A program made the translations under genes and the position numbers. From Verrucosispora sp. NA02020 (GTDB lineage Bacteria; Actinomycetota; Actinomycetes; Mycobacteriales; Micromonosporaceae), in contig NZ_CP054923.1 in NCBI RefSeq assembly GCF_013364215.1, forward strand, positions 682,001 to 746,000: 64,000 bases of DNA, written 5' to 3'. Below the pieces are notes generated by a model. It was not told the DNA's origin and made no database searches. It saw only the letters and a list, made by a program, of their open reading frames with translations. This document shows, one piece after another, positions 34,427 to 64,000 of the stretch (within the stretch, counting starts at the first letter, position 1; each line of letters opens with the position of its first letter).

Positions 34427-35065
34427 CTACTCGCCGAGCAGTTCGCGACGCCATTCGGCGAATCGGTTATGGAGATTGTCCAGCGCGTGGCCGGTGACGC
34501 CGTATTGGGCGAAGTCGTCGGGATCGAGCTGGGTGGCTTGTCCGAGAGCGTCGGCGAAGATGCGCGGATCGAAGCCACGGTCGGCGCGCTGCGCGAGAGC
34601 GAGAAGGGCGTCGCGGGTGTAGCGGCCGGACCGGAGCGTGGCGTCGATGTCGATGAAGTCCCGGGCGAACGCTCGTCCGTAGAGGGCGCTCATCTTGTTC
34701 GCGACCGCGTCGTCGGGGTGGAGGACCGGTCCGATCGCCATGAGGATCGGTTCGTTGGCGCGCCAGTCCACGCCGAGTTCGACCTTGGAAACCCGCGTAC
34801 CGTCGGTGACGGCCAGCCGGGCGAAGGTGTCGTACTGCCGCTCGGTCTCGACGGTGAGGCCGTCGTCTCGGTAGGCGTGCACGACGGCAACGACCGCGGC
34901 GGTGAACTCGTCGCGGCGGTCCCAGGCGGTGAACAGGTCGACGTCCTCGCTTGGTCGCTCGACGAGACCGGCGGCCTGGACCGCGTAGCCGCCGGCCAGC
35001 GCGAAGCCGTATCGATCGGCTGCCGCGAGTCCGGTACGGGCGAGGCGTTCGTGGAAGGGGTCCAC
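34427..35065 (-). CDS. AbiEii-type nucleotidyltransferase toxin
   Basis: 212 residues from a GTG at 35065. Nucleotidyltransferase landmarks of the AbiEii/AbiGii family are clear: GGYAVQAAGLVERPSEDVDLFT (GG followed by the D-x-D metal pair), the mid-protein VSKVELGVDW, and the later VANKMSALYGRAFARDFIDI with conserved Lys and Asp. AbiE systems are type IV-like toxin-antitoxin modules that abort phage infection; related toxins add nucleotides to tRNA. The antitoxin candidate ends only 2 bp upstream, giving one operon. Confidence 0.85.
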   Translation of the reverse strand: MDPFHERLARTGLAAADRYGFALAGGYAVQAAGLVERPSEDVDLFTAWDRRDEFTAAVVAVVHAYRDDGLTVETERQYDTFARLAVTDGTRVSKVELGVDWRANEPILMAIGPVLHPDDAVANKMSALYGRAFARDFIDIDATLRSGRYTRDALLALAQRADRGFDPRIFADALGQATQLDPDDFAQYGVTGHALDNLHNRFAEWRRELLGE

Positions 35066-44800: not shown

Positions 44801-47800
44801 CGTACCCAGCTCCGGGCGAAGTCCCAGAGGTGCGTATCCAGTGTGTCAGCGTGCCGTGCCGGCACTGAGGAGGACGGGTCCGCGCTGATGAGCGGCCCGT
44901 ACGCCTGGTACGTGTCGGGGCGGAACCGGTCCGTGTCGGTGCGGAACAGGTGCAGTGCCGGGCGGGGCCCGGGATGCGTCTGCTCGACCGGACGCTGGTC
45001 GCCGTGCACGATGATGTTGATGTCGAGTGCCCTGGCGACGACTGCGGGAAGGTGTCGCCCCAGGGCCGTCAGCTGGAGGTCGACCCGTTCGATCCCCGCC
45101 TGCAGGTGACGGGCACCGGATGTCGCACCCCCTGACGCCAGGTGCGTCAGTTGTACGCGGGCATGGTCGAAATCCATGACGGCCCGTAGGAGCCGGGCGT
45201 GGAAAGTGGGAGTCGGCTGCTCCACACGCCGGGCGAACTCCGCCCGCCACTGGCTGCGCCGGTGCTCGCGCGTCCGCGCGCTGCTCGCCGCCAGCACCGC
45301 CTCCCGGATCGTGTGGTCGTCCGCGTCGGGCAGTCGACGCCGCACCACGGCCGACGCTTCGGCCCGCCACCGACCGAGCTGCTCGGGCGTCGGCTCCGTC
45401 GGCCGGAAATCGGCCAGGAGCGCGGTCGACGTGCTGAACGGCAGCTCCTCGGCCAGCAGAGCGCCCCGACCCCCCGCCACGTCGGCGAACCGCGCCGGCT
45501 CGGTCGCCACCACCCCCGTGACGACGTCACGCAGATGACTCGGCGTGCGAATCTCGGGTGGTAGCGGAACACCCTGCCACACGGCGGCATCGAGGACCGC
45601 CCCCAGCAACCCCCGGTGCGCCCACTGCCCGTTCCGGGCCTCCATCGACGTCGGGGCCGGGCGGAGTGGTCCGGGAGCCGCCGCGTCCAGCCGGTCCGCG
45701 ACCTCACGACGCAGCAGATCGATCCGGCTCTCGCCGGCAGCGTCCAACCAGGGCCTTGTCTTCGACGTCAGCCAGGAGTCCACGGCCCTCAGCGCGATCA
45801 CGTCCTCGACGGTGGCACCGCCGACGGCGGGAACGGTGTCCAGGACGCCCTGTGCCTCGTCCACCAGGGCCGGTATCGGACCATGCTGCGACACGTCTAC
45901 GCCCAGGTCACCCAGCCTGACCTGCTCGTTCCGGAATCGCTCGCGCCAGGCGCCGACCGTCGCGCCGCTACGCTCCAACTCGTCCCAGAGCCCCGCCACG
46001 CTGGCCTGCCGCAGCTCCAACTCAGTGGCGGCATCGGTGACCGGTGGTGCCGTACGCAGGTAGAGGTCGGCCCGCCGCTGGATGCCCATCAGGTGGTCCA
46101 GCGGAACGCGGAGTGCCTCGCTGTCGGTGACGGCGTCCCGAGCTGCCATCTCCGGGTCCAAGCCGGCGACTGCGGTGACGAACGCGGCGGGATGCTCCGA
46201 TCTGGTGGAGACCGGCCATACGGGGTGGTCGGCCATGCCCCGCACCGCTCCGTGACCGTGGTCCGGCGGCGGATACCACGAGTTCAGGTGAAACAGCGCG
46301 GCTACCTGTGCGCGTCCGGCCGGGTCCAGATCCAGGGCTGCCAGCAATGACCTGAGCTGCGGTCCCCCCGACGGGTCGAGGAACCAACCGTGTACCTGCT
46401 GCGGCTCTGACCTGGTGGTGGCGAAGTTCGTGCCGACCACGTCCGCAGCGGAGTCGGGCAGGGCCGAGGCCGCCAACGGGTCGCGCGTCGTGGCAGCCAG
46501 GAGCGCCCAGACCACGCGGACCCCGCCCTGTAGCCCGCCCAGCCCGGACGTCGGGATGCCGGGATAGGTGAAGCCGACCTCGACGGCGTGAGGTCGCGAT
46601 TCGGCTGCGGTCACCTTCGGCGGATTCGCATGGTTGAGCCAGGGCAGTTCCGGTGAACCGAACAGCCGGGTCAGCGCGTCCTCGTGGGCGCGGACGAGGC
46701 GGCCCAGCGCCGCCGCAACATCGACCGGCTCCCCGATCCCCGCTGCCGACAACGGGGCGTGATCGACTTCGATCACCATCTTGGAGACGGACACGCCGTA
46801 CCGCCGCATGGCCTCGACCACGGATCCGAGCGCTCGCCACACCGGTGGGCTGTCCACGAGATCCGTGGCGCGGATGACGAACCTGCCGGCTTCGTCCAGG
46901 TCGAACTCGGTCCGCAGCCGTGACCTACCGCCATACACCGACAGCGCAGACTCTGCGGCGGCCAGCGCATCGACGAGTATCTCCCGACGATCCTCGGGGG
47001 CCACCCACGTCCACGGCTCGTGTGGCAGGTCGTCACTCCACGCGCCGTCGATGGTGAGAGCGAACGTCCGCCCGGACGCGGGATCGCCCAGGCCCCCCAA
47101 CGCCTGAGTCAGGATGTACGGCACGGGTGGTGTGCCGGCGTTGATCCGGTGCCGGAGCCAGTCCACGGTCTCCGACGGTTCCGGCCACCTCTCGGACCAG
47201 TCCGAGGCGTACGCCTCGACACTCGCCGGTAGGGTCTCGGTCAGGAGGCGACCCTGCGGTACCTCGTGCGTCCGTGGCAGGGCTTCCGGGATCGTCGGAG
47301 CGGCCCGGACCGGGCCCAGTCCCCGTGCCATCGGGAACTTCGAGGCCACTCGCCGCGCCGGGAAGATGGTCAACAACGCTGCGGCCTGCGCGCGGGTCGA
47401 CCCGTCCACGAGTAACTTCACCAGCCGCCACCCGTCGAGGCCCAGATCGAAGGCGTCGTCCGCGTGATCGCCGGGCGGCCGGAACGGCCAGTCCCACCAC
47501 CGCGGCTCGGGGAACGGTTGACGGGCCAACTCCACCAACTCCGCGAATATCCGCAACCCGGCCTGTCGTACGCCGGGCCATAGGAGTTCCTTCCTGGAGC
47601 TCATGCGGAGCCTGACGACATCGGCGGAACTCCAAGCCACGTCGAAAGACAGGCCACTGTCCTTGCGGTGGGCGCGGAGAAACCCGGCGAAGCTCGCGAA
47701 GCCGTACGGTGGCGGCGGGCTGCTTCTGCTCGCCAGGCCGATCTGGCTCATCGCGTTGAGATGCGAGTAGTAGAGGTGGGCCAGCCGCAGGTATGCGGCG

Positions 47801-50800
47801 GCGTCGGCGCCGTACCCTGTCCTGACCTCGACCGTCGCCTTGCTGAGGGTGAATCTCAGATCCCTCAGTGTGTCGAGCACCTGCGCAAGGTCGGTCCATC
47901 CAGCCTGCTCGTGGCCGAACGTGACCGTCAACGAGTACTGGCCGCCCGTGGGTGGCTCGACGCGCACACCGGCTACCTGTGACAGGCGAGCGAACGCTCT
48001 CTCGGCCTCCGGTGACTGTTGGTCAAGGAACGACAGGAGGTTGATCGACATGCCGTCCGGCACGGGTGCGTCCGGGAGCAACGGGCTCAGCCATTCGTGC
48101 GGCGCGGAGCCGGGTCCCGCCGCCGCGCCCATCGCCCGGATCAGACCGGCGACAGACTGCGGAACGTCCTGCCGGGCGGCACGGGCGATGATCCGGCGAA
48201 ACAGCTCAGCGCGCCGATCCGACGCGGCGTACCGCAGGGCTGCGGCGCTGACCTCGGCGACGTCGCCTCGGGTGAGGGTCGCCGACCCGTCGTGGTTCCA
48301 CACCGGCCACAAGTCCGACGTGTCGAGTCCGTACTTCTCCTCATCGGACCGCCGCCAAGTCTGAAACGCCCCGATCACCCGGCGCGGCCCGGCCGGACCG
48401 GCATCAGGTACCTTCGGCGGCCGACTCAGGTTGGCGTAGACCGCCAGCGACTGTGTCGGGAGATCCGACCTTGCGGCGACTTCCAACAGTCCGCGGAGAC
48501 CAAGCCAGCCACCGTCGTGGTTGAGCTGCTGGGCCAGCCTGGGTGGTACGTCGCCCTGCTCGAACACGATGTCGTACAGGTGGTCGGTGGGCGTGCCGGT
48601 CAACTGCCGCGTCGGCCAGTCCGGACGGCTTCGGATCGAGTCGGCGACCGGGCCCACCATGGCGAACCTCGGCGCGCCGGCCTCGTCAGCGTCGTTGAGG
48701 CGCGCGAGGTCGTCCGCCGGGTCGAGTACTGCGGGGTCGACACCGAGAACGGAGGCGAGCGCGAACAGTCTGTCGGGCGGGACACCCAGCCGCGACGCAT
48801 GCTCCTCGATGTCGGGCACCTGCCCGATCCGGAGGCTCAACCCGGTGACCCAGAAGGTGCTGATGCGCAGTCGTGTCGCCAACTCGTGGCGCCGGTGGAG
48901 GTCGAGGCCGAGCTGTTCGGCCACCTCCGACAGGGTCGTCAGGTACCGCTCGCGCTGGTGGTCGTTCAGGTCCGCCCACATCTGGTCGGCGAAGACCCTG
49001 TTCGGGCCGGCGGCCGACTCGCTGCTCGTGTCGGTGTCCGACCCGCTGGTCATCTCGACATCGGAGTCGGTGTCCATCGCGGAACCTGGGCCGTCGGTGT
49101 AGGTGGCGTCCGGCAGACCCAGCACACTGGTCAGCCACCAGCCGAGATCGATTTCGTCACCTGACCAGTCGGCCAGAGTCAGGCCCCAGTCGGTGAGGAA
49201 CGCCAGCGGCACCTGCGCGAGCCAGAACGTGTCCGTCACATCGAATCCGGCGTTTCTGGGCCACAACTGTCGCAGCACGTCGTCGGCGATCGCCGGGATC
49301 TCCTTCGGCGGGCCCTGTCGACGCGGCAACGTGGCCACGACCGGCCCGAGTTGGACCAGCGGCACATCCCACCGTGCGGCCATGCCGAACAGCTGTGTCA
49401 CGGTGTCGGGATGTGCGTCCGGTGGCAGCGGCGGGATGTCGGAGGCGCGCAGTCCACCCCACCGACGGGCGTAGGCCAGGGCCGTCGGCACCGGCACCGC
49501 CAGATCACGGGCGGCGTCGAGTACCGCGACATGGTCCAGCCACGGACGGTCGATCAGGTCGCGCTCGACCTCGTGACGCGACATGCCCATCTTCTGAGCG
49601 AGCCACTCGGCCAGCCACAGGTCGGCGTCGCGTGCTGCCGGCAACTGCGGGCGGATCGGCGGAGGCTCGTCCTCGTCGAACCGGCGTGCCGAGTCGTCCA
49701 TCGCCTGCTCCAACAGCCCGATCCAGTCCAGGCCCGCGAGCCGCCGGTGATACTCCGCGACGCTGGCGTGGCCCACCCGGAACGTGCTGAACAAAAGGTC
49801 GTGTAGCTCGTTCGGGGTCAGCCCGTCGGCCCCGGACCCGTCGGGTAGGCGCGCCCCTACCCAGAAGGTCCACGACGGAAATGGCACCGGCTCACCGTCC
49901 GGCCCCTGCGTGAGCAGGCGAACCAGGTGTTCGACGGTCAGTCGGTCGTCCGACCGCTCGGGCGTGTGTACCGCCAGCCGGTTCAGGACTGACCGTATCG
50001 GCAGGAGATCCAGGATGTTCGCGTTCAACCGCCAGGACAGCTCCAGCGCGACCTCCGGCTCGATCCCGGCCCGATAGGCGAACCAGTCCAGGCGGTCCGG
50101 CACGTGGCCGGTGTCCGCGATCACGTCGAGCAGTCGCGCGATCTGCTCCTTCGGCAGGTGCAGTTTGTCGACCAACCGGGCAACGCGCGGCAGGTCGACC
50201 AAGGGGAGCTCGGCCACCGCCCGGACCTGCTCCTCGGGCACCTCCCACCGGTCGGCCCAGCCGGCGGCCTCCCGCACGCTCAACCTCGTCGATGTCGACG
50301 CCGGCATCAGATCAGGTTCCAGATCGGCCGACTGCCGAATCAACCGGGCGGGAGCCACTTCCGTCAGGAACCGCGTGATCTGGGACGTCGGAACGTTGCC
50401 GACCAGCTGGTATACGAGCGAGGGCAAGTGGCCGGACGGCAGGAGGTTGCTCAACTCGGTGACCGGGAATCCGAGCTTGCCGCTCAACTCCGCATACCGC
50501 GTGACGTGCTGCAGCGACTTGAACCCGAGTTCTTCAGCGATGAGTCGGACCTGATCCACCAGCCGCTCGACCAGCGTCCCGACCTCGGCGGGCCGGACGC
50601 GGTCCGCTCTCATGTCGACAATCCCCGCCGCGGTCCGGATCATTTCTCGGATGGACAACAGGCCGGCAAGATCGATCCTGCCTGCCGTCTCCAGTCGTGC
50701 GGACGGCGGATCCCCCGCCGCGTCGACGGGAGGGGCATCCGGAGGCGCCGGGTGCTCGCTCTCGGTGCCGGATGGGGCGACCGGCCCGAGGCTCAGCTGC

Positions 50801-53800
50801 CCGGCGAGCGCTTCGAGCGCCAGCAATCGCAGCTTGCGCCGCACCTTTCGGACCGACTCGTCCGGCCCGACCGAGACGAGGAACATTCCCAGTTCCTTCG
50901 CCACACCGGCGATGTCGTCGCCCCGGCGGACCTGATCGGCGGCCCAGGCCACGGACCGTCCGGCCAACCTGTCCGGAAGGGTGTGCACCAGTTCCAGCAG
51001 CACCCCCCGCTCGCTCAGCCAGCGGAACGACGGAAGATCATCCGGACCCAGTCCGAGCCGGGCGCTCAGCTCGGCCAGATACACCACCTCGACATCGGTC
51101 GACACCCCGAACGGCCCCAACCGCTCGCGTAGCCCGGTCAGCAGCTCGTCAGCCGTGGCCACCCTGGTGTTGGTGGCACGCGTCCGCACCACGGTGACCA
51201 GTTCCCTACCGACGATCCGCAGGGCGCCCGGCGGTAGACCGAGATCCTGGGCGACCGCGTACCACGCCCGCCGGAGCGGCTCCACGAGATCCGCCGAGGC
51301 GCGCTCCTGCGCGTCGGTCGGGAGCGGCCCGTGCACCGCCGAGATCGCCTCGACCGTCAGATCGGTGACCTCGTCCGGGTCCGGCACGCTCTCGATCAGA
51401 CGTACCCACTGCCGCGTCCTGGCCTCGTCCGGGCCCGTCACACCCAGGTCGCCGACCAGTCGGGTCCATTCGTCGCCGTGGAAGAGGTCGTCGGTCTGCG
51501 GCTGCCGACCCGCCGACGGGGTGACCGCCGGCGCCGTCGGGGACGCCTCCGACACCGGCTCGTCCGGCTCCCACACCCGCTGGTACGCCGGTGGTGGCGT
51601 CTCCTGCCTGAACCGGTCTGCGGTGGGCGTGTCCAGCGCCAGTTCCAGTGCGCCGTCGAGCCGGAAGACGAGCTGCGGCAGGCCACGCACTTCTGCCGGC
51701 TCCACCTGCACCAGCAGCCCGCCCCGGACCCGTTGGTAGACCACGTCGTCGCTGCTGAGCGTGCCCAGGGGCAGCGCGTCGACCAACGCCATCCGGAACC
51801 TCAGCGGACCCGCCGTTGCGCCCTGGGGGCGCAGGGCAGCGCCGAGCATTCCGGACAGCCCTGGTCCGGAAACCACCTGGTGCAGCGTGTCGGCCCGCAT
51901 CAACTGCCGTCCAGCCGATCGCCAGCGACCCACCTCGACCTCCGCGACGACTGCGTCGTGCAGTGTCCGTACCGACACCGGATCGATGGCGGCCACTCGC
52001 GCCAGGCCCCGCCGCAGCGTCTCCGGTGGAAGATCCAGCACTACGGGGTTGAGCCGGTCCACCGTCGCGGCCAACTTCTCATCCACACCGACCAGTTCGG
52101 CCCCGCGCCGCGCCACCCGCGACCGTGGCCCGGACAACACCTCGTCCGACACCAACGCCCGCAACTGCACCAGCGCCGCGCGGACCACCGGCAGGTCAGC
52201 CGTCGGCGGATGCCCGGAGTGCTCCCACCGCACCGTCACCAGCAACGGGGCGGCATACCACTGCGCGGACTCCGCCGCGCCCACATGCTGGTACGCGCCG
52301 ACCGGCTCCGCGCGCACCACCAGCCGGATCCCCCTGTCCTCCGGCCCGCTCCCGCGCGCCGGGCGCAGCACCACACCGCTGTCGAACAGACCGGACTTCC
52401 GCCAGGCCGTCAGTTGCTCGGCACTCAACAGGTCACGCAGCACGACGCGCTGGCTGGTGACTGCGGTGTCATACGTGACCGCCCGCCAGTCAGCGTCCTG
52501 CAGATGCTTCGCGTGATCCTTCACCAGATTCGCCGCCAGCCCCTCGACCCGCTCCGTCGGCGCCTCGTCTGGTTCGGACAGCGCGTCGACGGCCATGGAG
52601 TCCGACGCGGTCTCGTCGGCTTCGGGCGACGTGTCGATGTCCATCGGGTCCGACGGCGCTTCGTCGGCGGCATCCTCGGCGGCGTCCTCGGCATCGGGTT
52701 CGGGTTCGGGTTCGGGTTCGGGTTCGGAGGAGATCACCAGATCTTCGACGACCAGGGGGAACTCGTCCGGTGTCAGCACGGCCGGCGGCCACGAACCGAC
52801 CGCGACCGGCTCTTCGGCGGGCGAGGGCGGACTGGCGTCGAGTTCCAGATGTTCGTCGGGATGCGCAGCGGTGCTGCCTGGCGGCGTCTGCGGGTCGAAC
52901 TCGGTGAGGATCCGGTAGTACGTGCCCGCGTCGCGCCACAGTCGCCGGAGCAACTCACGCCGGGTCGCCACCGGGCTCGCCGTCGCATGTGGCAGGCGCA
53001 ACCGCTCGGCGTACCGGTCGAGATGGGCCACCAGCGCTGCCGGGTCCTGCTCGGCCGGATCGGCACCGGCCTCGTCCAGCAGCGCGTCCAGCAGGTAGTG
53101 ACCGACCCGCGCCGGGACGCTCCCGGACGCGAACAGGGCCTCCTGCCACCGTGGACCGAAGGCCAGGTCGAGTAGCCGCCGGTCGTGAGCGGTCTCCGCG
53201 TGCAGCGACGCGGTCGACGGCCACGGTCGCGGCGACACCGGAGGCGCGGGCCGGTGCACCCGGACGAAGTCCGCGTCGGCGACGGCCCCGGTGTGGCTGG
53301 CCAGCACCCGGGCCACCCACATGCCGTACTGCCACACCGTCCACGGGACGGGGCGGTCAGGGGTGCCGATCACCACGCGCGGGTCGCCGTCGCCGACCTG
53401 TGGTGACACGTCTGCCGGACCGATCCACACCCGGTCGCCGACCGTGACGACATGCCAGCCCGGCAACATCTCGTACCTGCCGTCGTCGCGGGCGCTCAGC
53501 GTGAACATGCCACCGACAGGAACATCCCGCTGCGAGCCGGGATGCACGGTGTAGTAGGTGGCGAACGGTGTCATCGTCGGCTGGTGTGCCCCGCTGTGCG
53601 CGACGAGACGGCCGGCGTCGGCACCGCTGGGATCCACCAGGTCCCGGCCGACCGCCAGGACGTGCCCGTCGCCCAGCACCTCGGCCAACGCCACCACGTG
53701 GGCCGCCGACAGACGCGCGGCGGGCACCAACTCCACGAGCGCGTCGGAGGGAAGGGCGGCCCCGATGTCCGTGAGTCGTCGACGCGCGTCCGACACGTCC

Positions 53801-55248
53801 CCGACCTCGACGACCACCAGCGGCCGGTCCGGATGAGGCAGCCGCTGCGGCGGTGACGCCGTCGGTGTCGTCGGCAGGAAGACGCCCGCCGGGCCCAGGC
53901 TCAGAGCCCCCAGATCCGCGAGTACGGCCACCAACCCGTCGATCTCGACGTGCCAGTCCCGCACCGAACCGTCGGCGGCGAGGGACAACTCCAGGCGAAA
54001 AGCCTGGGCCTCGGTCGGGTCGGCCTGGTACACGGCGCGTACGTCGGCCCTGGCCAGCAGAGCCCGATCGTGGCCGGCCGCCAGCCGCCGCAGCACCCGT
54101 GGGCCGAACCGGCCGAGTCTGCGGGCTGAGTCGAGCCGCATGTGTGTCCGATCCACCAGATCCACCACGGCGGGATGGGCGGCTCCCACCCACCGCCGAG
54201 CACGTACCGCCTCGCGCACCCCGGGATCCGCCGAACGGAACAGGCGGAAGTCCTCCACGTCGGTGATGCCGAGCAGCGTCCGGTGCGCCTGCTGCACCGG
54301 GCCGAACACCACCACGGCGGTCGCGGGATCCCGCAGCGCCGCCGACACCCAGCCCTCGCCCACCGGCACGATGACCGGCCCCGGACCACCACCCGGGGCG
54401 GGTGATGCCCCGAACCACCACACCACATCGTCGTGCGTGACCAGCCAGCCCAGCTCACCCGCGCCCAGACCGGGCCGCAAGCGCACCAGCGCCGACGAGT
54501 CGGGGGCCCGCAGGAGGCCGTCGAGCAGCGCGTCGACGTCCGCCGTCGGCGTCGGTTCGCCACCCGCCACCGACAGCACGTCGGCCATCGAGACCGGCAT
54601 CACCTTCCGCATCAGCTCGGCCGCGTCCGGCCCTGGCGGGAGGCCGTGACGCACCAGGCGGAACGCCATCGCGACGGCCGCCGTCGGCACCGGGACCCGC
54701 AACCGCTGGTGCGACTCCGCCAACCACCCGGCCAACGCCTCGATGCGGGTCCAGGACGGCGAGGTGCGGTCGGACGCGATCTCGACCGCCGTGCGGACCG
54801 CCTCTCGGGCGGCGACGTGCGACCACGGCAGGCTCCGCACCGCCACGGCGTCGTCCCACGAGGTCTCCCGACCCTGCGGGTCCACCGGCACCAGCCGCGC
54901 CGAGCGCGCCGACCCGACCGGTACCTGCACCTGCACCCGGTACAGATCCGCGAGCTTCTCCACCGCTTCCGCGTCGTCCACCAGGCGGCGCCCGTCGACC
55001 CCCCAGCGCTCGACCTCCCACGGCACCAGCACCAACTGGTCGGAGAAGGGCTGCCCGTGGACGAAGTCCGCGCCGACCGCCGAACGGGGCTTCTCCTCCG
55101 CCAGGAAGACCAGGGCCGCGTCGACCGGCCGCACCGCGGCGAGCGAGGCCGCCAACGCCGCCGAATGCCCGGTCTGGGTCAGCTCACCGGTGAGGACCAG
55201 CCGGCCCGCCACCACGAGAATCTCCCGGCAACCATGCGCGACCGGCAC
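41869..55248 (-). CDS. Giant 4,459-residue protein of a WXG100 locus
   Basis: One uninterrupted frame; I take the GTG at 55248 as start, with open frame to 55518 upstream as an uncertain extension. No signal peptide or membrane helix is seen. Around residues 470-640 and again 3730-3905 there is a related module (P/T-rich entry, VEVGD, VELV, HPFA/TPFATYYTVHP, LPGWH, GDR-W-I-x-P, IG-P, PWTVW). Acidic low-complexity segments lie near 835-890 and 2055-2075, and most of the rest is predicted helical. I find only three cysteines: residue 7, one near 4406 (DACELDPLDKAFW) and the last residue. A segment near 3410-3440 (INIIVHGD, then LHLFRTDTDRF) resembles a degenerate peptidase edge. The divergent WXG100 pair suggests type VII-type secretion. 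Streptomyces giant 'lonely Cys' proteins are a possible comparison. Function unknown. Confidence 0.85.
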   Translation of the reverse strand: MPVAHGCREILVVAGRLVLTGELTQTGHSAALAASLAAVRPVDAALVFLAEEKPRSAVGADFVHGQPFSDQLVLVPWEVERWGVDGRRLVDDAEAVEKLADLYRVQVQVPVGSARSARLVPVDPQGRETSWDDAVAVRSLPWSHVAAREAVRTAVEIASDRTSPSWTRIEALAGWLAESHQRLRVPVPTAAVAMAFRLVRHGLPPGPDAAELMRKVMPVSMADVLSVAGGEPTPTADVDALLDGLLRAPDSSALVRLRPGLGAGELGWLVTHDDVVWWFGASPAPGGGPGPVIVPVGEGWVSAALRDPATAVVVFGPVQQAHRTLLGITDVEDFRLFRSADPGVREAVRARRWVGAAHPAVVDLVDRTHMRLDSARRLGRFGPRVLRRLAAGHDRALLARADVRAVYQADPTEAQAFRLELSLAADGSVRDWHVEIDGLVAVLADLGALSLGPAGVFLPTTPTASPPQRLPHPDRPLVVVEVGDVSDARRRLTDIGAALPSDALVELVPAARLSAAHVVALAEVLGDGHVLAVGRDLVDPSGADAGRLVAHSGAHQPTMTPFATYYTVHPGSQRDVPVGGMFTLSARDDGRYEMLPGWHVVTVGDRVWIGPADVSPQVGDGDPRVVIGTPDRPVPWTVWQYGMWVARVLASHTGAVADADFVRVHRPAPPVSPRPWPSTASLHAETAHDRRLLDLAFGPRWQEALFASGSVPARVGHYLLDALLDEAGADPAEQDPAALVAHLDRYAERLRLPHATASPVATRRELLRRLWRDAGTYYRILTEFDPQTPPGSTAAHPDEHLELDASPPSPAEEPVAVGSWPPAVLTPDEFPLVVEDLVISSEPEPEPEPEPDAEDAAEDAADEAPSDPMDIDTSPEADETASDSMAVDALSEPDEAPTERVEGLAANLVKDHAKHLQDADWRAVTYDTAVTSQRVVLRDLLSAEQLTAWRKSGLFDSGVVLRPARGSGPEDRGIRLVVRAEPVGAYQHVGAAESAQWYAAPLLVTVRWEHSGHPPTADLPVVRAALVQLRALVSDEVLSGPRSRVARRGAELVGVDEKLAATVDRLNPVVLDLPPETLRRGLARVAAIDPVSVRTLHDAVVAEVEVGRWRSAGRQLMRADTLHQVVSGPGLSGMLGAALRPQGATAGPLRFRMALVDALPLGTLSSDDVVYQRVRGGLLVQVEPAEVRGLPQLVFRLDGALELALDTPTADRFRQETPPPAYQRVWEPDEPVSEASPTAPAVTPSAGRQPQTDDLFHGDEWTRLVGDLGVTGPDEARTRQWVRLIESVPDPDEVTDLTVEAISAVHGPLPTDAQERASADLVEPLRRAWYAVAQDLGLPPGALRIVGRELVTVVRTRATNTRVATADELLTGLRERLGPFGVSTDVEVVYLAELSARLGLGPDDLPSFRWLSERGVLLELVHTLPDRLAGRSVAWAADQVRRGDDIAGVAKELGMFLVSVGPDESVRKVRRKLRLLALEALAGQLSLGPVAPSGTESEHPAPPDAPPVDAAGDPPSARLETAGRIDLAGLLSIREMIRTAAGIVDMRADRVRPAEVGTLVERLVDQVRLIAEELGFKSLQHVTRYAELSGKLGFPVTELSNLLPSGHLPSLVYQLVGNVPTSQITRFLTEVAPARLIRQSADLEPDLMPASTSTRLSVREAAGWADRWEVPEEQVRAVAELPLVDLPRVARLVDKLHLPKEQIARLLDVIADTGHVPDRLDWFAYRAGIEPEVALELSWRLNANILDLLPIRSVLNRLAVHTPERSDDRLTVEHLVRLLTQGPDGEPVPFPSWTFWVGARLPDGSGADGLTPNELHDLLFSTFRVGHASVAEYHRRLAGLDWIGLLEQAMDDSARRFDEDEPPPIRPQLPAARDADLWLAEWLAQKMGMSRHEVERDLIDRPWLDHVAVLDAARDLAVPVPTALAYARRWGGLRASDIPPLPPDAHPDTVTQLFGMAARWDVPLVQLGPVVATLPRRQGPPKEIPAIADDVLRQLWPRNAGFDVTDTFWLAQVPLAFLTDWGLTLADWSGDEIDLGWWLTSVLGLPDATYTDGPGSAMDTDSDVEMTSGSDTDTSSESAAGPNRVFADQMWADLNDHQRERYLTTLSEVAEQLGLDLHRRHELATRLRISTFWVTGLSLRIGQVPDIEEHASRLGVPPDRLFALASVLGVDPAVLDPADDLARLNDADEAGAPRFAMVGPVADSIRSRPDWPTRQLTGTPTDHLYDIVFEQGDVPPRLAQQLNHDGGWLGLRGLLEVAARSDLPTQSLAVYANLSRPPKVPDAGPAGPRRVIGAFQTWRRSDEEKYGLDTSDLWPVWNHDGSATLTRGDVAEVSAAALRYAASDRRAELFRRIIARAARQDVPQSVAGLIRAMGAAAGPGSAPHEWLSPLLPDAPVPDGMSINLLSFLDQQSPEAERAFARLSQVAGVRVEPPTGGQYSLTVTFGHEQAGWTDLAQVLDTLRDLRFTLSKATVEVRTGYGADAAAYLRLAHLYYSHLNAMSQIGLASRSSPPPPYGFASFAGFLRAHRKDSGLSFDVAWSSADVVRLRMSSRKELLWPGVRQAGLRIFAELVELARQPFPEPRWWDWPFRPPGDHADDAFDLGLDGWRLVKLLVDGSTRAQAAALLTIFPARRVASKFPMARGLGPVRAAPTIPEALPRTHEVPQGRLLTETLPASVEAYASDWSERWPEPSETVDWLRHRINAGTPPVPYILTQALGGLGDPASGRTFALTIDGAWSDDLPHEPWTWVAPEDRREILVDALAAAESALSVYGGRSRLRTEFDLDEAGRFVIRATDLVDSPPVWRALGSVVEAMRRYGVSVSKMVIEVDHAPLSAAGIGEPVDVAAALGRLVRAHEDALTRLFGSPELPWLNHANPPKVTAAESRPHAVEVGFTYPGIPTSGLGGLQGGVRVVWALLAATTRDPLAASALPDSAADVVGTNFATTRSEPQQVHGWFLDPSGGPQLRSLLAALDLDPAGRAQVAALFHLNSWYPPPDHGHGAVRGMADHPVWPVSTRSEHPAAFVTAVAGLDPEMAARDAVTDSEALRVPLDHLMGIQRRADLYLRTAPPVTDAATELELRQASVAGLWDELERSGATVGAWRERFRNEQVRLGDLGVDVSQHGPIPALVDEAQGVLDTVPAVGGATVEDVIALRAVDSWLTSKTRPWLDAAGESRIDLLRREVADRLDAAAPGPLRPAPTSMEARNGQWAHRGLLGAVLDAAVWQGVPLPPEIRTPSHLRDVVTGVVATEPARFADVAGGRGALLAEELPFSTSTALLADFRPTEPTPEQLGRWRAEASAVVRRRLPDADDHTIREAVLAASSARTREHRRSQWRAEFARRVEQPTPTFHARLLRAVMDFDHARVQLTHLASGGATSGARHLQAGIERVDLQLTALGRHLPAVVARALDINIIVHGDQRPVEQTHPGPRPALHLFRTDTDRFRPDTYQAYGPLISADPSSSVPARHADTLDTHLWDFARSWVRERYSILDGGRGWNERRMAWAKLVDLLVKWVDVPPMPTFVDFIDFGDIAIFDPRRWRLDLAVTSVDGALIALMKQLLVAEVITMQARAVSSPPDMSKHTTAHDVARHLWDTRVGEDTRLEAWPSDYAHVRARAATARDSAQREILMTAHRLSTIGPLERSPRLRHRLTQGVLATQRQYADVMASTIDSVAEAQLLLEQQFTEAGSLRDWRTASTIRVSEVPGFEMVDLGPAGSFVRPAGSRTDPPTRMTHPTRRLDIVEVGDPATAPHVLTQVRDGLPESSTVELVMSAPVSASRAVELAGLVGGDRTLALAANLVDPADLTDHFVAHTRVHTPTLHPFAAYYTVHPEPQRHGLLIADLALVHVGDGRHGLLPGWHIVPMGDRLWIRPADHPEQDLPYSGSARIVIGVPEEETPWTVWVLGQRLGTAVTVGTDLTSEEIVHRLGRLGPKPSVPPLDPAVAHQVGDRDVRLFQRAFENESPLVEANVLVSNEGVAVVERLTLSHVADVLLDLAGADPTESDVEVLVGRLDRLAERQGFHTGDPTQERAANARDRLLSWAGTRLTDAGLAGLLTDVTATDEAEPMTGKPAEPAEAPVAVQRQPVLVPVRAGVYLPHGDDPASPPVIEWMPRYQSYVSAFATLDPGTAELVAGARRYGPVRFNDQLTAAGVPADARLSLTLSPLTGENVSELSRRTAQRFADELWSLRGAPGIFSTPETSGPAAPPRILPEVLTGWLEQADWPAAQQYLRQHVAELKQRESIEAMRALSHHDPENRVAAPYRAILELVDLAGGVAEPTDARHRPETAIDPDGTQPWLVPTGPVPTAFAFDYLRVRPDRQARRPWNDQLLRMMYEREAFRELAVMLAWGVVERGEHPTQGRHAGFDYGQGNAMVFAAVHRVLRMSVTRAGTPGPTGGWPEIDAVDACELDPLDKAFWVDRMDELRGRVLIFGIPGHPDRNGVPAPEHEKLLNLLIERLASC

Positions 55249-55533
55249 ACCATCACCCCCCGGTCGCTTCTCCGGCACCGACAGCTTCGGATGGGTTTCC
55301 GCCGTTCGGTGCCCTGAGCCGGCCTCCCTGCCCAAGCCATCCCCGCCGCACGGTGGCACGACTCGCCGGATCCCCGGTAGTCCCTTTATGTCCGCACCGG
55401 GCGTCCTCACCGTCCGGTGCGGCGGGTGTCCCTGGAACTGGTGACTGTGCCGGTCCCGTGCCGAGCGGGCAGGCTGGCACGGGACCGCCGTCCGGACGGC
55501 CAGGAGGCCGAGCGGCATCGACCGGGAGGGCCT
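55249..55533. promoter_or_regulatory. Divergent promoter region, giant gene/WXG100 operon
   Basis: 285 bp between the opposed starts must hold promoters for both transcripts. I find no long palindrome or known operator. A GGGAGGG ribosome site for the WXG100 gene is at its right end. Confidence 0.45.
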
Positions 55534-55869
55534 ATGAAGCTAGTCGACATCACTCCGCAGATGCTGCTGGACGGGTCACAGTCCTGCACCGACACGGCTG
55601 CACAGCTACAGGCGCGGCTCGCGACGCTGCGACGGGACGTGGACGACCTGGCGTCGTACTGGTTGGGGCCGGGTTCCAAGGCCTACAAGCAGACCATGGA
55701 GGAGTACGACACCTGCGGCCGGATGCTCAACGACGCCCTGAACGGAATCTCGCGGGGCCTGCAGCGCAACGCCGGCAACTACGCCACGGCCGACGAGGCG
55801 ACGGTGCGCACCATGCCCGAGATCAATGGTATTCCGGCGGCCCGTCTCGGGCCTGAGCCCGGCGCCTGA
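55534..55869 (+). CDS. WXG100 family protein
   Basis: 111 residues from the ATG at 55534 after GGGAGGG. It has two helices joined by the WLG turn (Trp43-Leu-Gly45 in ASYWLGPGSKAYKQTMEEYD), as in ESAT-6-like proteins, with a slightly long helix 2 and a Pro-rich tail. WXG100 proteins are secreted as dimers by type VII systems. The next gene encodes a second WXG100 protein 36 bp away, a likely heterodimer partner. Confidence 0.88.
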   Translation: MKLVDITPQMLLDGSQSCTDTAAQLQARLATLRRDVDDLASYWLGPGSKAYKQTMEEYDTCGRMLNDALNGISRGLQRNAGNYATADEATVRTMPEINGIPAARLGPEPGA

Positions 55870-55905
55870 CCGGAACCGTCAGCCCGCCCGAGTAGAGGAG
55901 TTCGC

Positions 55906-56217
55906 GTGACCGACAGTATGGGTAGTCGCATCCGGGTCCCCCCGGAGCTGGAGTTCGCCGGCGCCAGGCTCAAGAGCACCGCCGACGAGCTGGTCGACAT
56001 GCTCGCCACCCTGAAGGCCAAGCTCGTTCCGTTGGAGGAGAGCTGGGTCGGTGAGGCACGCGAGGAGTACGTCGGACTCCAGGGGCAGTGGAACGCCGGG
56101 GCGAACGGTCTGTTCGGTGTGGACGGCGCACTGGGCGACATCGCCAACGCCGCCAACCTCGCCTGGAACAACTACTCCGAGGCGGAGTTCTCGAACCTGC
56201 GTACCTGGCGGGGCTGA
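55906..56217 (+). CDS. WXG100 family protein
   Basis: 103 residues from a GTG at 55906. Helix 1 (FAGARLKSTADELVDMLATLKAKL), the WVG turn (Trp47-Val-Gly49) and helix 2 (EEYVGLQGQWNAGANGLFGVDGALGDIANAANLAW) are clear. A YSEAE near the end may be the Y-x-x-x-D/E type VII signal. Second gene of the three-gene operon with the discoidin membrane protein downstream. Confidence 0.88.
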   Translation: MTDSMGSRIRVPPELEFAGARLKSTADELVDMLATLKAKLVPLEESWVGEAREEYVGLQGQWNAGANGLFGVDGALGDIANAANLAWNNYSEAEFSNLRTWRG

Positions 56218-56275
56218 CGATCACCGCAGGCCGGGGGTCTTGAACATCCGAGACCTCCGGCTCGTAGTATTCGGC

Positions 56276-58843
56276 ATGATCCGTGATCAACGAGGCCGTA
56301 CCTCCGACGCGCAGCCGTCGCCGGAACCGGTCGGACCGGGTGCCGAGTCGAACCCGGAGTCGCTCGCGGACAGCAGCCGGTTCCGCAAGCTCGGTTCGGC
56401 CCTGAACTGGGTCGGTGACCGGGTGGCCGTGGTCGGCGCCGACCCGACGGGAGCGGTCGCCGCCGCAGCGACCGGGCTGGCGGCGGAGCGCGACGTGGTG
56501 ACCGTCGTCGGGCCGCTCGACACCGCCGAGGACTGGGCGTTCGTCGAGACGGTGCTCCCCATCGCGGTGCCGCCGGGCAGTCGTGCCCGGGTCGCGGTGG
56601 CCGGGGCGGCCGGTCGCGGCCTGGCCGGTCGGCTGGCCCGGGAGCTGACCGCCACCCTCGACGTCCCCCGGGCCGAGGTGCTGCTGGTGCCCGGGGGCTC
56701 GCTGTTCGCGGTGGACGGCTGGCTGCGGCACACCCCCGACGGGGTGGCCTCCCCGGCCGGCCATCGCAGCCCGCAGCCGCCCTGGGAGAACGACGTCGAC
56801 GAGCTGTGCGCCGCGACGCGCCCCGGTGAGCTGGTGCTGCTTCCCGTACCGGCCGGGATGTGGCTGTTCGGTCGGCTGCCGGGCACCCCGATGCCGGACT
56901 ACGACGACCCCGCGTACGGGGTGCCGATGGACGCTGACCGGCCGGTGCTGCTGATCGGGCGGCCCGGGCAGCCGGAGCCGGAGGCGGACGCCATCGTGGA
57001 ATTCCTCGACCGGCTCCCGTCCCGGCTACGCCAGCAACTCGTGCTGGCCTCCTACGGATCGGTGACCACGACTGCGGCGGCGGCGACGAGCCTGGCCCGT
57101 GAAACGGGTGTCCCGGTGCAGGTGCACACCGGCCTGCCGGCGCTCACGCCCGAGGGCCGACCGACGAGTCTCGCCGTCGACCACGCGGCGGCCACCTGGG
57201 AACCGATCGCGACCGTCCTCAGCTTTCCGCCCGAGGGTCCGGCCCGTCCGGTCGGACCGGTACGCGGACTCGACGGCTACCAGGAGCTGACGGAGAACGT
57301 CTTCCGGCTCGGCGAGCGGTGGGTGGCCGAGGTGACACAGTCCGGCCTCTGGGTGCGGCCACCCGAGCAGGAGCACGCCGCACGCCTCGTGCGGTCGCAC
57401 CCGTGGACCTCCGGCAAGGTGCGGATCTTCGTGGGCGTACCCGGCAAGCCGCCCCGGTACCACGTGTTGCCGGTGCTCGGCGCGATGCTGGGCCGGATGC
57501 CCGCCGAGACCCGTCAGCGGGTCGAGTTGTCGCCGGCCCGGTTCGCGGTGGCGGCCGGGGACGACGCGGTCCCGACGCCGGACCCGGAGCAGGGTGAGCC
57601 GGCCGCGCCGGTGGTGCAGCGCACCGTCGTGCTGCGCGCCCCGCAGTCCGGTGGCGCGATCCCGGTCGTCCCGGCACCGGCGGAGCGGCCGGAGGACCCG
57701 ACGGCCGCGAGGCGGAGTCCCGAAGGTGGACGGACGATCGGGGCGGGCGCGGCGTCGCCGGAGACGACCGCGTCGCCTGCGTCCGGCGGGAACGCCCCGG
57801 TCGGGCCCGCGCTGGTGGCCGCGCCGACGACGCAGTATCCGATCCGTCCGGTGGCGCGGCACGAGGCCGTCCGTCCGGTCCGCCGCGACGAGCCGAAGCT
57901 GGGTACGGAGGCGGTGCGCCCACCGCGTACCGAGGCGTCCCGTCCGCCGGTCTCGCCCCCGGCCGGTCCGGACGACGAGCGGCGACACCCGTCCGGGTCC
58001 GGTCCGGCCGGACCGGAGACCCGGCGGCGGCGCAAGCCCCGGCTGTCGGCCCAGATCCTGACCGCCGTCGCGGTCCTGACAGTGGCGGTCGCCAGCGGGT
58101 ACGTGCTGAATCCGAACGGGCAGCCGTCCGGCGCCGACACACCGCCGGGGTACGCCGTACCGCCGCCGCAGGGTCTTCCGGAGTTCTCCGCCGGGACGCC
58201 GGTCGCCGCCGACCCGTCCGGTACCCCGGCCGACGATCCGTCCACCTCGGTCAGTCCCGCCTCCGGCAGCAGCGGCCAGACCGGTGCGGCCCCCGGCCCG
58301 AGCTTTCCCGGGCAGAGCCAGGCGTCGACGGGCGGCACCGACCGGGTGCCCGCGCCGGTGGCCCCGCCCCGACCCAGCGGGTCGCCGTCGTCCGCACCGA
58401 GTGCCACCCCCCGGCCCGCGGCGTCCTCGGCGATGCCGGGTCAGGTGAACAGTTCGGGACGGAACCTGGCCCTCTCCGGGACCGCCAGCGCGTCGAGCTT
58501 CGAGACGATCTACCGGCCGTCGAGCGCGATCGACGGGGACCGGGAGTCCCGGTGGGGTAGCGCGTTCACCCCGGACACCCAGTGGCTCGCCGTCGACCTG
58601 GGCGAACTCTGGCAGGTCACCGAGGTGCGGCTGCGGTGGCAGCGGGCCTACGCGACCGCGTACCGGGTCGAGGTGTCCGCCGACGGCGGGACGTGGCGGA
58701 CGGTCTACCAGACCGGTAGCGGCGCGGGCGGGACCGTCGACATCGCCGTCACCCGCACTCCGGTCCGCTACGTCCGCATGGTCGGCACGGCCAAGGCGAT
58801 GCCCGGGTACGGGTACTCGATCCACGAGTTCGAGGTGCGCTGA
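56276..58843 (+). CDS. Membrane protein with external F5/8-type (discoidin) domain
   Basis: 855 residues from the ATG at 56276. Residues about 45-210 and 220-410 are soluble alpha/beta regions; the second is related to the module of the giant protein (RLGERWVAEVTQSGLWVRPP then KVRIFVGVPGKPPRYHVL). A Pro/Ala/Arg linker leads to one membrane helix near 587-612 (ILTAVAVLTVAVASGYVL) preceded by RRRRKPR, so the N-terminus is cytoplasmic. Outside come a Pro/Ser/Thr stalk and, from about 728, an F5/8 type C domain (NLALSGTASASSF, SSAIDGDRESRWGS, WLAVDLGELWQVTEVRLRW), which usually binds carbohydrate. It may link surface glycans to the cytoplasmic module. Confidence 0.8.
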   Translation: MIRDQRGRTSDAQPSPEPVGPGAESNPESLADSSRFRKLGSALNWVGDRVAVVGADPTGAVAAAATGLAAERDVVTVVGPLDTAEDWAFVETVLPIAVPPGSRARVAVAGAAGRGLAGRLARELTATLDVPRAEVLLVPGGSLFAVDGWLRHTPDGVASPAGHRSPQPPWENDVDELCAATRPGELVLLPVPAGMWLFGRLPGTPMPDYDDPAYGVPMDADRPVLLIGRPGQPEPEADAIVEFLDRLPSRLRQQLVLASYGSVTTTAAAATSLARETGVPVQVHTGLPALTPEGRPTSLAVDHAAATWEPIATVLSFPPEGPARPVGPVRGLDGYQELTENVFRLGERWVAEVTQSGLWVRPPEQEHAARLVRSHPWTSGKVRIFVGVPGKPPRYHVLPVLGAMLGRMPAETRQRVELSPARFAVAAGDDAVPTPDPEQGEPAAPVVQRTVVLRAPQSGGAIPVVPAPAERPEDPTAARRSPEGGRTIGAGAASPETTASPASGGNAPVGPALVAAPTTQYPIRPVARHEAVRPVRRDEPKLGTEAVRPPRTEASRPPVSPPAGPDDERRHPSGSGPAGPETRRRRKPRLSAQILTAVAVLTVAVASGYVLNPNGQPSGADTPPGYAVPPPQGLPEFSAGTPVAADPSGTPADDPSTSVSPASGSSGQTGAAPGPSFPGQSQASTGGTDRVPAPVAPPRPSGSPSSAPSATPRPAASSAMPGQVNSSGRNLALSGTASASSFETIYRPSSAIDGDRESRWGSAFTPDTQWLAVDLGELWQVTEVRLRWQRAYATAYRVEVSADGGTWRTVYQTGSGAGGTVDIAVTRTPVRYVRMVGTAKAMPGYGYSIHEFEVR

Positions 58844-62064: not shown

Positions 62065-64000
62065 ATGGCGAGCGACACCCATCCGGATCCTGACAAACTC
62101 GATGCGCTCGCCGCGCAGTGGGAGGCCAAGGCCGAGGACCTCGATCGGTTGCGCCTCGTACCGGCGAAGGCCCTGAACCAGGTCGGCAACTGGCAGGGTA
62201 GCGGTCGGGCAGCGGCTACCCGCACGCTGCCCAATCTTGAGAAGAACCTCCGCAACACCGCCGAGTTGTGTCGCCGCTGGGCCCGACGGTTGCGCAAGAT
62301 GGCGGACGAGATCCGCAAGAAGCTCGAAGAGCTCCGCAAACAGTCGCTCGTCACGATCCTGAGCGTCATCTTCGGACTGCTCTTCGGTTTCATCGTCGGT
62401 TTCGCGATCGGCCCGGCGCTTGCCGCGCTCGTCGCGGCGATGGCGCGGGCGGTCGCCGGTCTCGCCACGGCGCTGCGGGCCATCATCAACCTGTCGTTCC
62501 AGTTCGGTGTCGGCGCGGCCGTGTTCGGTTCCACCCAACTTGCCGCCGAGGTCTTCGCCCAGGCGATCGCGTCGCACGTCGACGGCAAGTTCGAGATCAC
62601 CAACGAGAGTTGGATCAGCGTCGGTGCCGCCGCCGGTCTGGGCGGTCTGTTCGGACTCTCCACCCGGGGACTCGGCAAGGTCGGCGGCGGTGGGCCGAAG
62701 TCGACCGACGTGCCGACGGTCAAGGGCCTGGACGGCACGAACACCGGTGGCCGACCCAGCGACACCCCCACCCCGGACCCACGGACCGGTCGCGGAGACG
62801 TGCCGGGTGTCGGCTCGCCGGACGGCCCTCCGCTCGGCGCACCACCCCCGTACGGTGCTGTCGGTGGCCGGCCCCCGACGCCGGGCCCGGTCAGTGCCAG
62901 TTCGACGCCGCCACCGGTCCGCCCTGTCGGTGGGCGGGGAAACGCCGGTGGTGCCGCGCCGACGCGGACCACCCGACCCACCACGGTCGACCAACCCCCA
63001 CCCTCGGCGCTCGGCGGCGCGCCGGCGCGGACCACACCGCCACCGGCCCGCCTCGACGGCCCGGTGAACACGCCACCACCAGCCCAACCGCAACCCCGCG
63101 CCGGGGTGCCGCAGCCCGACGGTCGGCCACCGGCGGTCGGCAACGGCAACGCGGCCAGCAGCCTGCCACCGCCCGCCCGCACCACTCCGCCGCCGAAGGC
63201 CGACGCGGGTGCTCCACCCGTCGGTTCGCGGACGCCGGGTGGACCGGCGATGGCCGGAGTGGACGCGCCCGCGCCGCCTCCGCGCGCCGTCGCCGCCGAT
63301 CCTCGGCCGCCGTCGGTGCTGACGCCCGAGCCGGCGCCCGGCGGAGGACGGCCGCCTGCGGCGAGCCCGGACCTGCCCGCCACCCCCGCTGGTGGGCGGC
63401 CGCCCGCCGCGAGCCCGGACCTGCCCGCCACCCCGGCTGGTGGACGGCCGCCCGCCGCCAGCCCCGACCTGCCCGCGACCCCGGGCGCGGGTCGGGACGT
63501 ACCCGTCAACGGCCCTGCCCGGGACGTGTCACCGATCGCCCCCGAACCGGTCCGGCACGGCACTCCGCCGCCGGGCCAGGGCCTGACGGTCGATCCGCCC
63601 GTGGCACGGCCCGGTGGCGTCGGCGCGGTGACGGACGTTCCCCCGCCGACTGGCAGACCTGCCGGTACCACTCCCGATGCCACGGTGTCGGTGCCACCGC
63701 CCGGCCGCCCGGTCCAGCCGGGTGTCGAGGGGAACCCGGTGAACACGCCCGGCGGCGGCACCATCGGCGGGGCCCCGCGTCCAGGGCGTCCCGTCGAGGG
63801 AATCCCGGCCAACCAGGTGGTCGACGTCCCCACGCCCACCCCGAGACCGGCCACCCCCGAGCCGTCCACACCGGTGCCACCCGCCGGGCAGCCCGGCCCA
63901 CGGGGCAACCTCGCCGCCACCGACCTGCCGGCCGACGTCAGGACCCCGGTCACCACGCGACCACCGCTGGACCGGGCACCCGTCTCCGGCGAGCCGCCGG
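62065..64000 (+). CDS. Large WXG-membrane-proline-rich protein, N-terminal part (effector-like)
   Basis: The frame is open to the window edge (at least 645 codons). The first about 95 residues are a WXG100-like hairpin with Trp43-Gln-Gly45 in VGNWQGSGRAA. Hydrophobic helices follow near 96-135 and 140-165 (ILSVIFGLLFGFIVGFAIG), then an Ala/Gly loop. From about 215 a very long Pro/Gly/Ala/Arg low-complexity stretch holds three 16-residue repeats at 426-473. WXG plus membrane-like segment plus long Pro-rich linker is the front of many polymorphic toxins, whose toxic domain is at the far C-terminus, here outside the window. A structural surface protein is an alternative. Confidence 0.75.
   Translation, partial: MASDTHPDPDKLDALAAQWEAKAEDLDRLRLVPAKALNQVGNWQGSGRAAATRTLPNLEKNLRNTAELCRRWARRLRKMADEIRKKLEELRKQSLVTILSVIFGLLFGFIVGFAIGPALAALVAAMARAVAGLATALRAIINLSFQFGVGAAVFGSTQLAAEVFAQAIASHVDGKFEITNESWISVGAAAGLGGLFGLSTRGLGKVGGGGPKSTDVPTVKGLDGTNTGGRPSDTPTPDPRTGRGDVPGVGSPDGPPLGAPPPYGAVGGRPPTPGPVSASSTPPPVRPVGGRGNAGGAAPTRTTRPTTVDQPPPSALGGAPARTTPPPARLDGPVNTPPPAQPQPRAGVPQPDGRPPAVGNGNAASSLPPPARTTPPPKADAGAPPVGSRTPGGPAMAGVDAPAPPPRAVAADPRPPSVLTPEPAPGGGRPPAASPDLPATPAGGRPPAASPDLPATPAGGRPPAASPDLPATPGAGRDVPVNGPARDVSPIAPEPVRHGTPPPGQGLTVDPPVARPGGVGAVTDVPPPTGRPAGTTPDATVSVPPPGRPVQPGVEGNPVNTPGGGTIGGAPRPGRPVEGIPANQVVDVPTPTPRPATPEPSTPVPPAGQPGPRGNLAATDLPADVRTPVTTRPPLDRAPVSGEPP
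63340..63483 (+). repeat. Three 48-bp tandem repeats (GGRPPAASPDLPATPA)
   Basis: Units at 63340, 63388 and 63436 encode the same 16 residues, with silent changes and one altered final residue. They lie in the proline-rich linker of the right-edge gene. Confidence 0.9.

Follow-up and report, generated by a model that had tools for sequence, protein, structure and literature searches.

The 64,000-nucleotide stretch of DNA analysed here (the window) carries, on its plus strand, two WXG100 genes followed by the gene of a membrane protein, and this operon adjoins, in divergent orientation, the gene of a giant protein of 4459 residues. Close homologues of both the giant and the membrane protein come from Micromonospora and Verrucosispora, on which ground we assign the genome to the Micromonosporaceae. 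The original prediction held that the two proteins share a module, which it placed at giant residues 470-640 and 3730-3905 and at residues 220-410 of the membrane protein. Our boundaries, counted from the GTG at 55248 and from Met56276, are 466-654 (copy c1), 3726-3915 (copy c2) and 216-404, in close agreement, and the sequence strings that it quoted are present, for those that were looked up. The span it gave, 53330..57510, takes in or closely borders c1 and the stretch of the membrane protein, whereas c2 lies outside it (Table 1).

Table 1. Features of the locus; positions are those of the window unless preceded by C1.
Feature	Position	Strand	Basis or remark
Giant protein, 4459 aa from GTG at 55248	41869..55248	-	Start supported by homologues
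Module copy c1 of giant, ORF residues 556-744	53287..53853	-	BLASTP, iterated profile
Module copy c2 of giant, ORF residues 3816-4005	43504..44073	-	BLASTP, iterated profile
Zincin-like metallopeptidase-related region before c2, ORF residues 3538-3795	44134..44907	-	HExxH lost
WXG100 protein a	55534..55869	+	PF06013 E 2.4e-14, ATG start
WXG100 protein b	55906..56217	+	PF06013 E 1.2e-10
Membrane protein, 855 aa from Met56276	56276..58843	+	Homologues P0003-P0006 share the start Met
Degenerate first module copy, P0002 residues 143-281	56477..56893	+	Domain E 9.3e-17
Second module copy, P0002 residues 291-479 (216-404 from Met56276)	56921..57487	+	Profile alignment
Basic cluster RRRRKPR, then single TM helix	58022..58111	+	Best 19-residue hydropathy 1.93
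F5/8 type C (discoidin, CBM32-like) domain	58484..58804	+	PF00754 E 1.1e-19
17,162-aa giant	62065..64000, on to C1:795553 (C1:744065-795553)	+	4 module copies
12,960-aa giant frame	C1:815761-854643		3 module copies

The open reading frame of the 4459-residue giant opens upstream, at 55518, and its first 90 codons are without counterpart in homologues. Given that all eight homologues (P0028-P0035) begin at ORF residue 91, to which their own residue 1 aligns, we set the start at the GTG at 55248. No Pfam or NCBIfam family matched over cut-off anywhere in the whole protein, its C-terminus included, where no toxin domain was recognised. Cysteine occurs only at residues 7, 4405 and 4459, and neither c1 nor c2 contains one. 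A cysteine is likewise the last residue of P0028, P0030-P0032, P0034, P0035 and a further giant of 12,960 residues in the locus; in the giants that end in this way a second cysteine stands 51-54 residues earlier and the residue is very scarce overall, that at residue 7 being an additional one in the window giant and its homologues. P0033 has one residue beyond its final cysteine and an extra cysteine at 3240, and a giant of 17,162 residues, also in the locus, has six cysteines and a different C-terminal residue. The three local giants are related in sequence, residues 908-2787 of the window giant matching two successive stretches of the 17,162-residue protein and both of its ends matching the ends of the 12,960-residue protein.

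The membrane protein is composed, in order, of two module copies, a proline-rich linker, one transmembrane helix (beginning at about residue 665 of P0002) and a discoidin domain. The last (PF00754, 71.2 bits against a cut-off of 28.2) is the sole domain over curated cut-off in the membrane protein and the 4459-residue giant combined. No signal peptide was found by eye. Under the positive-inside rule, the RRRRKPR cluster directly before the helix would place the modules in the cytosol and the discoidin domain outside the cell. Two genomes (G005 and G063) encode a proline-rich transmembrane-discoidin protein separately from the module protein, in an adjacent gene, and in a third (G057) the module gene adjoins that of a Ser/Thr kinase with a transmembrane helix and a discoidin domain (L086:14775-16508); these separate genes fit with modules inside, discoidin outside and parts that are separable. 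A profile search of the membrane family collected 25 copies with a length of 170 residues or more, and a second, weaker copy precedes the main one in 25 of the 26 family members, the 26th sequence being without that end. The motifs YG and W..E....G.W.R are invariant in the membrane-type module across 25 aligned sequences.

The surrounding genes are those of a type VII secretion system. They encode EccC, an FtsK/SpoIIIE ATPase (C1:797794; PF01580 in three stretches, E 2.9e-91), EccD (YukD E 1.2e-16, EccD E 4.1e-9), a mycosin protease (Peptidase_S8 E 1.2e-16) and an EccA-like protein, all of them beyond the window. The 17,162-codon frame contains no internal stop and the N-terminus of its product is WXG100-like, with a PF25547 match just under the cut-off; the Pfam scan covered 9,978 of its 17,162 residues and left out the 12,960-residue giant. 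Added together, the three giants encoded in this single secretion locus come to about 34,600 residues. We conclude that the giant and membrane genes are very probably both members of one type VII (ESX-like) locus. A sigma-70-type gene (regions 2 and 4), which we label ECF, lies inside this locus at C1:809139-809732 (L007:6140-6733), and in the product of 58854-60770 the WXG100 domain (E 4e-7) is C-terminal, at residues 543-627 of 638, rather than N-terminal. Elsewhere in the window, 35720-38077 encodes a primase-helicase of the TOTE conflict system (PF22548 E 2.5e-71), and an AbiEii-like gene (34427-35065) is found one gene away from it.

The module is about 190 residues long and of the alpha/beta class. 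Within the window giant its two copies are plainly related: c1 and c2 are 40.8% identical over 250 residues (BLASTP E 1.8e-48), with a Smith-Waterman z of 57 and a score that none of 1000 shuffles equalled. An iterated c1/c2 profile recovered two copies in this giant, four in the 17,162-residue giant and three in the 12,960-residue one (represented by its first 9413 residues in this search and by its full length in a later one); the eight giants P0028-P0035, homologues of the window giant, have one or two copies apiece. As further copies we considered the N-terminal (330 residues) and C-terminal (290 residues) domains of the giant; by hhalign they score 12-17 against both family profiles, inside the range of 40 shuffles each, and they served as a negative control. 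A 706-residue neighbour (L004:11619-13739) was likewise rejected as a module carrier, the module models giving no match to it. The 1095-residue product of C1:805737-809024 has a stretch that resembles the first membrane module copy by eye (LAGILGRDVLISPAGSMLRYDG), and the module models do not match this protein.

The case for the copy in the membrane protein is weak by pairwise comparison. With default settings, BLASTP aligned the membrane stretch with the giant copies at E values of 0.5-4, which are not significant; with BLOSUM45 and without composition correction, c2 was matched over 182 positions at E 8.9e-5 and c1 by an off-register piece at E 0.02. Smith-Waterman scores stood above shuffled sequence for c1 (z 5.8, reached by 0 of 1000 shuffles) and less clearly for c2 (z 4.0, reached by 6 of 1000). 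Profiles, however, settled the question. Aligned by hhalign, the giant and membrane profiles gave a colinear match of 161 columns with a score of 54.9 (E 4.9e-8), against a maximum of 23.2 among 200 column-shuffled profiles and 10.0 for the reversed profile, which bears out the original claim of a common module. Profile-profile comparison of longer alignments gave a probability of 96 (E 4.3e-9, 216 columns), and limiting the alignments to the window columns gave 95.1 (E 3.4e-8, 220 columns). A model built from giants only also matches the window membrane copy directly, though weakly (E 1.7e-4). One genome, G083, bridges the two types: its giant of 5291 residues has tandem copies at 866-1060 and 1119-1306, each matched by both models (membrane model E 4e-5 and 8.6e-14; giant model 8.4e-15 and 1.1e-3). 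The same bridge appeared in the genome search, at G083:C1:55866-56423 with the membrane query (E 2.1e-10) and at G083:C1:55914-56408 with the giant alignment (E 2.8e-7). The giant and membrane modules are homologous, a conclusion that we regard as close to certain.

The AlphaFold models of a giant and a membrane-protein segment, each including the module, were both confident (pLDDT 85; pTM 0.84 and 0.82), and we compared the two folds through the profile alignment together with their predicted strand/helix strings. At the register of the profile alignment the strings agree at 60.5% of 220 positions, against 27-49% at offsets of 3-30; circular shifts gave a mean of 36.2% and a best of 59.1%, the latter probably the neighbouring register (60%). 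That the strings match most closely in this register speaks for the reading we prefer. In Foldseek the best rows for the membrane model were nitrilase-like amidases, at E values of 0.009 or more and rmsd of 14-17, and VIA-align matched the long helices of the giant model, so that the module itself was hardly probed. Kinship with Rossmann dehydrogenases was considered and rejected: Foldseek lists the hydroxyisobutyrate dehydrogenase chains 5y8g, 5y8j and 5y8m for both models at E values of only about 1, and 68 positions of the giant-unit profile match a glycerol-3-phosphate dehydrogenase chain (E 0.0034). We take these matches to reflect a common alpha/beta core rather than kinship.

In the giants the module is usually the end of a larger unit. 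A domain bearing HExxH precedes it in 18 of 22 aligned units, with the motif some 173-182 residues upstream of the module in the copies measured, and in 4 of the 22 this domain matches DUF6782 (PF20573, a putative metallopeptidase; best E 2.4e-5). Both window rows of the alignment are without HExxH, which is absent from the whole window giant, and in the alignment of the 22 units no zincin-like peptidase domain is recognisable before c1. With the peptidase unrecognisable before one copy and its motif lost before the other, the window giant would keep only the non-catalytic remainder of the unit. Three of the four module copies in the 17,162-residue giant are also without HExxH at the usual upstream distance. 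Two Dactylosporangium giants, P0032 and P0033, have stretches of the HExxHxxGxxH type, labelled in the database as matrixin/reprolysin-like Pfam families; active-looking and dead peptidase domains therefore coexist in the giant family.

No cysteine, and hence no catalytic one, is present in c1, c2 or the membrane copy at 291-479, and the single cysteine of the first membrane copy (in DELCAAT), while the majority residue of the family, is conserved in less than 90% of members and absent in P0023. Membership of the caspase-like peptidases was rejected on sequence, no caspase-like Pfam family matching at E 0.1 in 26 + 22 members. A search for PF11713 was silent in all 61 genomes, as was its control, and CHAT gave two matches in the genome of the window, both away from the locus. 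The three cysteines of the giant, all outside the module, and the absence of HExxH at either window copy argue for a module without catalysis of its own; that it serves instead as an interaction domain is a proposal for which we see about even odds.

Both module types were then traced through 150 genomes of the family, in searches that score about 16-22 candidates per genome, the absences and copy numbers given here being lower bounds. The membrane type was found in 52 genomes (in G038 and G074 weakly and with an internal stop) and the giant type in 21, or 19 after dropping G085 and G130, in which the match is the membrane-type place itself. Fifteen genomes have both types, four the giant type only (G011, G019, G032 and G086), 37 the membrane type only and 94 neither, an association with a Fisher p of 3e-5 that ignores kinship among genomes that are not independent. 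The original prediction had asked whether genomes always carry both proteins; they do not, as the membrane type is missing from 4 of 19 giant-type genomes and no giant type was detected in 37 of 52 membrane-type genomes. An EccC at least 50% identical to the local one occurs, among the matches listed, in at least 19 of the 150 genomes, and 14 of these 19 have the membrane type (p 4e-4) and nine the giant type (p 5e-5). The two types share a contig in 12 of the 15 genomes that have both; eight of these pairs are at most 65 kb apart, a limit chosen after seeing the distances, and the other four are separated by 157 kb to 6.1 Mb, measured linearly along the contig. Across the class, the membrane type was found in 8 of 196 genomes, counting the window's own and one weak match with an internal stop.

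We surveyed the 20-kb regions around membrane-type genes in 19 genomes chosen from the 52. Eleven of these regions have an EccA-like gene, another two have a mycosin-like one, and six (G101, G088, G108, G130, G083 and G126) have neither; in G116, G142 and G057 the EccA-like gene has a membrane-type gene on either side. In G101 and G075 a sigma-70-type gene directly follows the membrane-type gene, and in G055 and G075 zf-HC2 (anti-sigma-like) genes lie near it. Carbohydrate-sensing anti-sigma factors, those of the RsgI type, are known, and we entertained the possibility that the membrane protein acts as a sensor at the cell surface. Its discoidin domain would read a glycan outside the cell and its module would relay the signal to the secretion system or to gene expression, the giants sharing the module by descent only. 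The regulatory genes of these genomes, the sigma-70-type gene of the window locus, the kinase-transmembrane-discoidin protein of G057 and the closeness of the discoidin family to the discoidin domains of glucanases and chitosanases would all suit such a role; yet Pfam and NCBIfam revealed neither a kinase nor a zinc-finger nor any other signalling domain in the membrane protein of the window, and the module itself stays unexplained. We consider a sensor rather unlikely.

Judging by the tandem copies inside the G083 giant, the shuffling of domains within loci of this kind accounts for some of the sharing. Carried to its limit, this would make of the module a structural spacer or a defunct repeat of peptidase-like type, spread through type VII loci without implying any joint function of its bearers, as the two, four and three copies in the local giants could also suggest. 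It is not obvious, however, why a membrane protein with a single transmembrane helix would need an array of spacers, and the invariant YG and W..E....G.W.R of its module suggest a retained function; recycling of this kind is to us an account of low probability. Lower by far stands the idea of a protective decoy, in which the module of the membrane protein shields the producer from the giants or from their processing peptidase. The divergent arrangement of the two genes and the occurrence of membrane-type genes where no giant-type module was detected could be read in this way, but Pfam and NCBIfam recognised no toxin domain in the giant, and in 13 of the 19 genomes surveyed the relatives of the membrane gene stand beside secretion genes, company for which a pure immunity gene would have no use.

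The reading that we prefer, with a probability of about 45% for the whole of it, is that a mobile, non-catalytic interaction module of about 190 residues is common to proteins of one type VII secretion locus and that the membrane protein docks the giants at the secretion machine. The membrane protein, with two copies predicted to be cytosolic and a discoidin domain predicted to be extracellular, would be an accessory or docking subunit of that machine; the giants, its presumed cargo, would carry the module, usually as the end of a zincin-like metallopeptidase unit, so that they can be kept in place, put in order or passed on in the course of export. Besides homology and fold, this reading is supported by the Ecc/WXG100/mycosin locus, by the split genes of G005 and G063 and by the association of the two types, and against it we count the genomes with one type alone, the six regions lacking Ecc and mycosin genes and the four distant pairs. 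The earlier suggestion that the two proteins belong to one machine stands in part: module homology and the common type VII locus speak for it, constant co-occurrence does not hold, and the recognition of each other or of a common partner, offered there as an example, stays a conjecture. That the membrane module pairs directly with the giant module seems unlikely, and we consider it improbable that a membrane receptor recognises giant cargo like with like, by pairing of the same pseudo-enzyme modules, with the cargo threaded past it or stacked. To our knowledge, little is understood of how type VII systems choose and transport very large proteins; a module found both in presumed giant cargo and in a machine-linked membrane protein gives studies of cargo recognition a concrete starting point that can be tested, and it links the giant orphan proteins of these actinomycetes (4,459 to 17,162 residues) to a secretion route.

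Our literature searches brought up nothing on this module or on its sharing with a membrane protein of a secretion locus, and the nearest comparisons are with its parts. Among the actinobacterial polymorphic toxins that they describe, Zhang et al. (2012, PMC3482391) report caspase-like repeats that form arrays and of which some have lost catalysis, and they count type VII secretion as one of the export routes. In contrast to the arrays as described there, the present module matches neither Peptidase_C80 nor any other caspase-like Pfam family in sequence, it occurs also in a membrane protein, and no C-terminal toxin domain was recognised. The domain before the module resembles DUF6782 in the matching units and in its HExxH; the window differs in that the c2 unit has lost the motif and the domain is unrecognisable before c1. 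The discoidin part of the membrane family profile matches the CBM32/discoidin domains of glucanases and chitosanases (PDB 4zy9, 4zxe and 2rv9; 4zy9 at E 6.5e-38), but here it is attached to a transmembrane protein, and no enzyme domain was recognised. As in the ESX/type VII loci of other actinobacteria, EccC, EccD, a mycosin, an EccA-like protein and a WXG100 pair are present, EccB not being recognised among the nine locus proteins scanned; unlike them, this locus brings together three giants and a membrane protein that joins module, transmembrane helix and discoidin domain.
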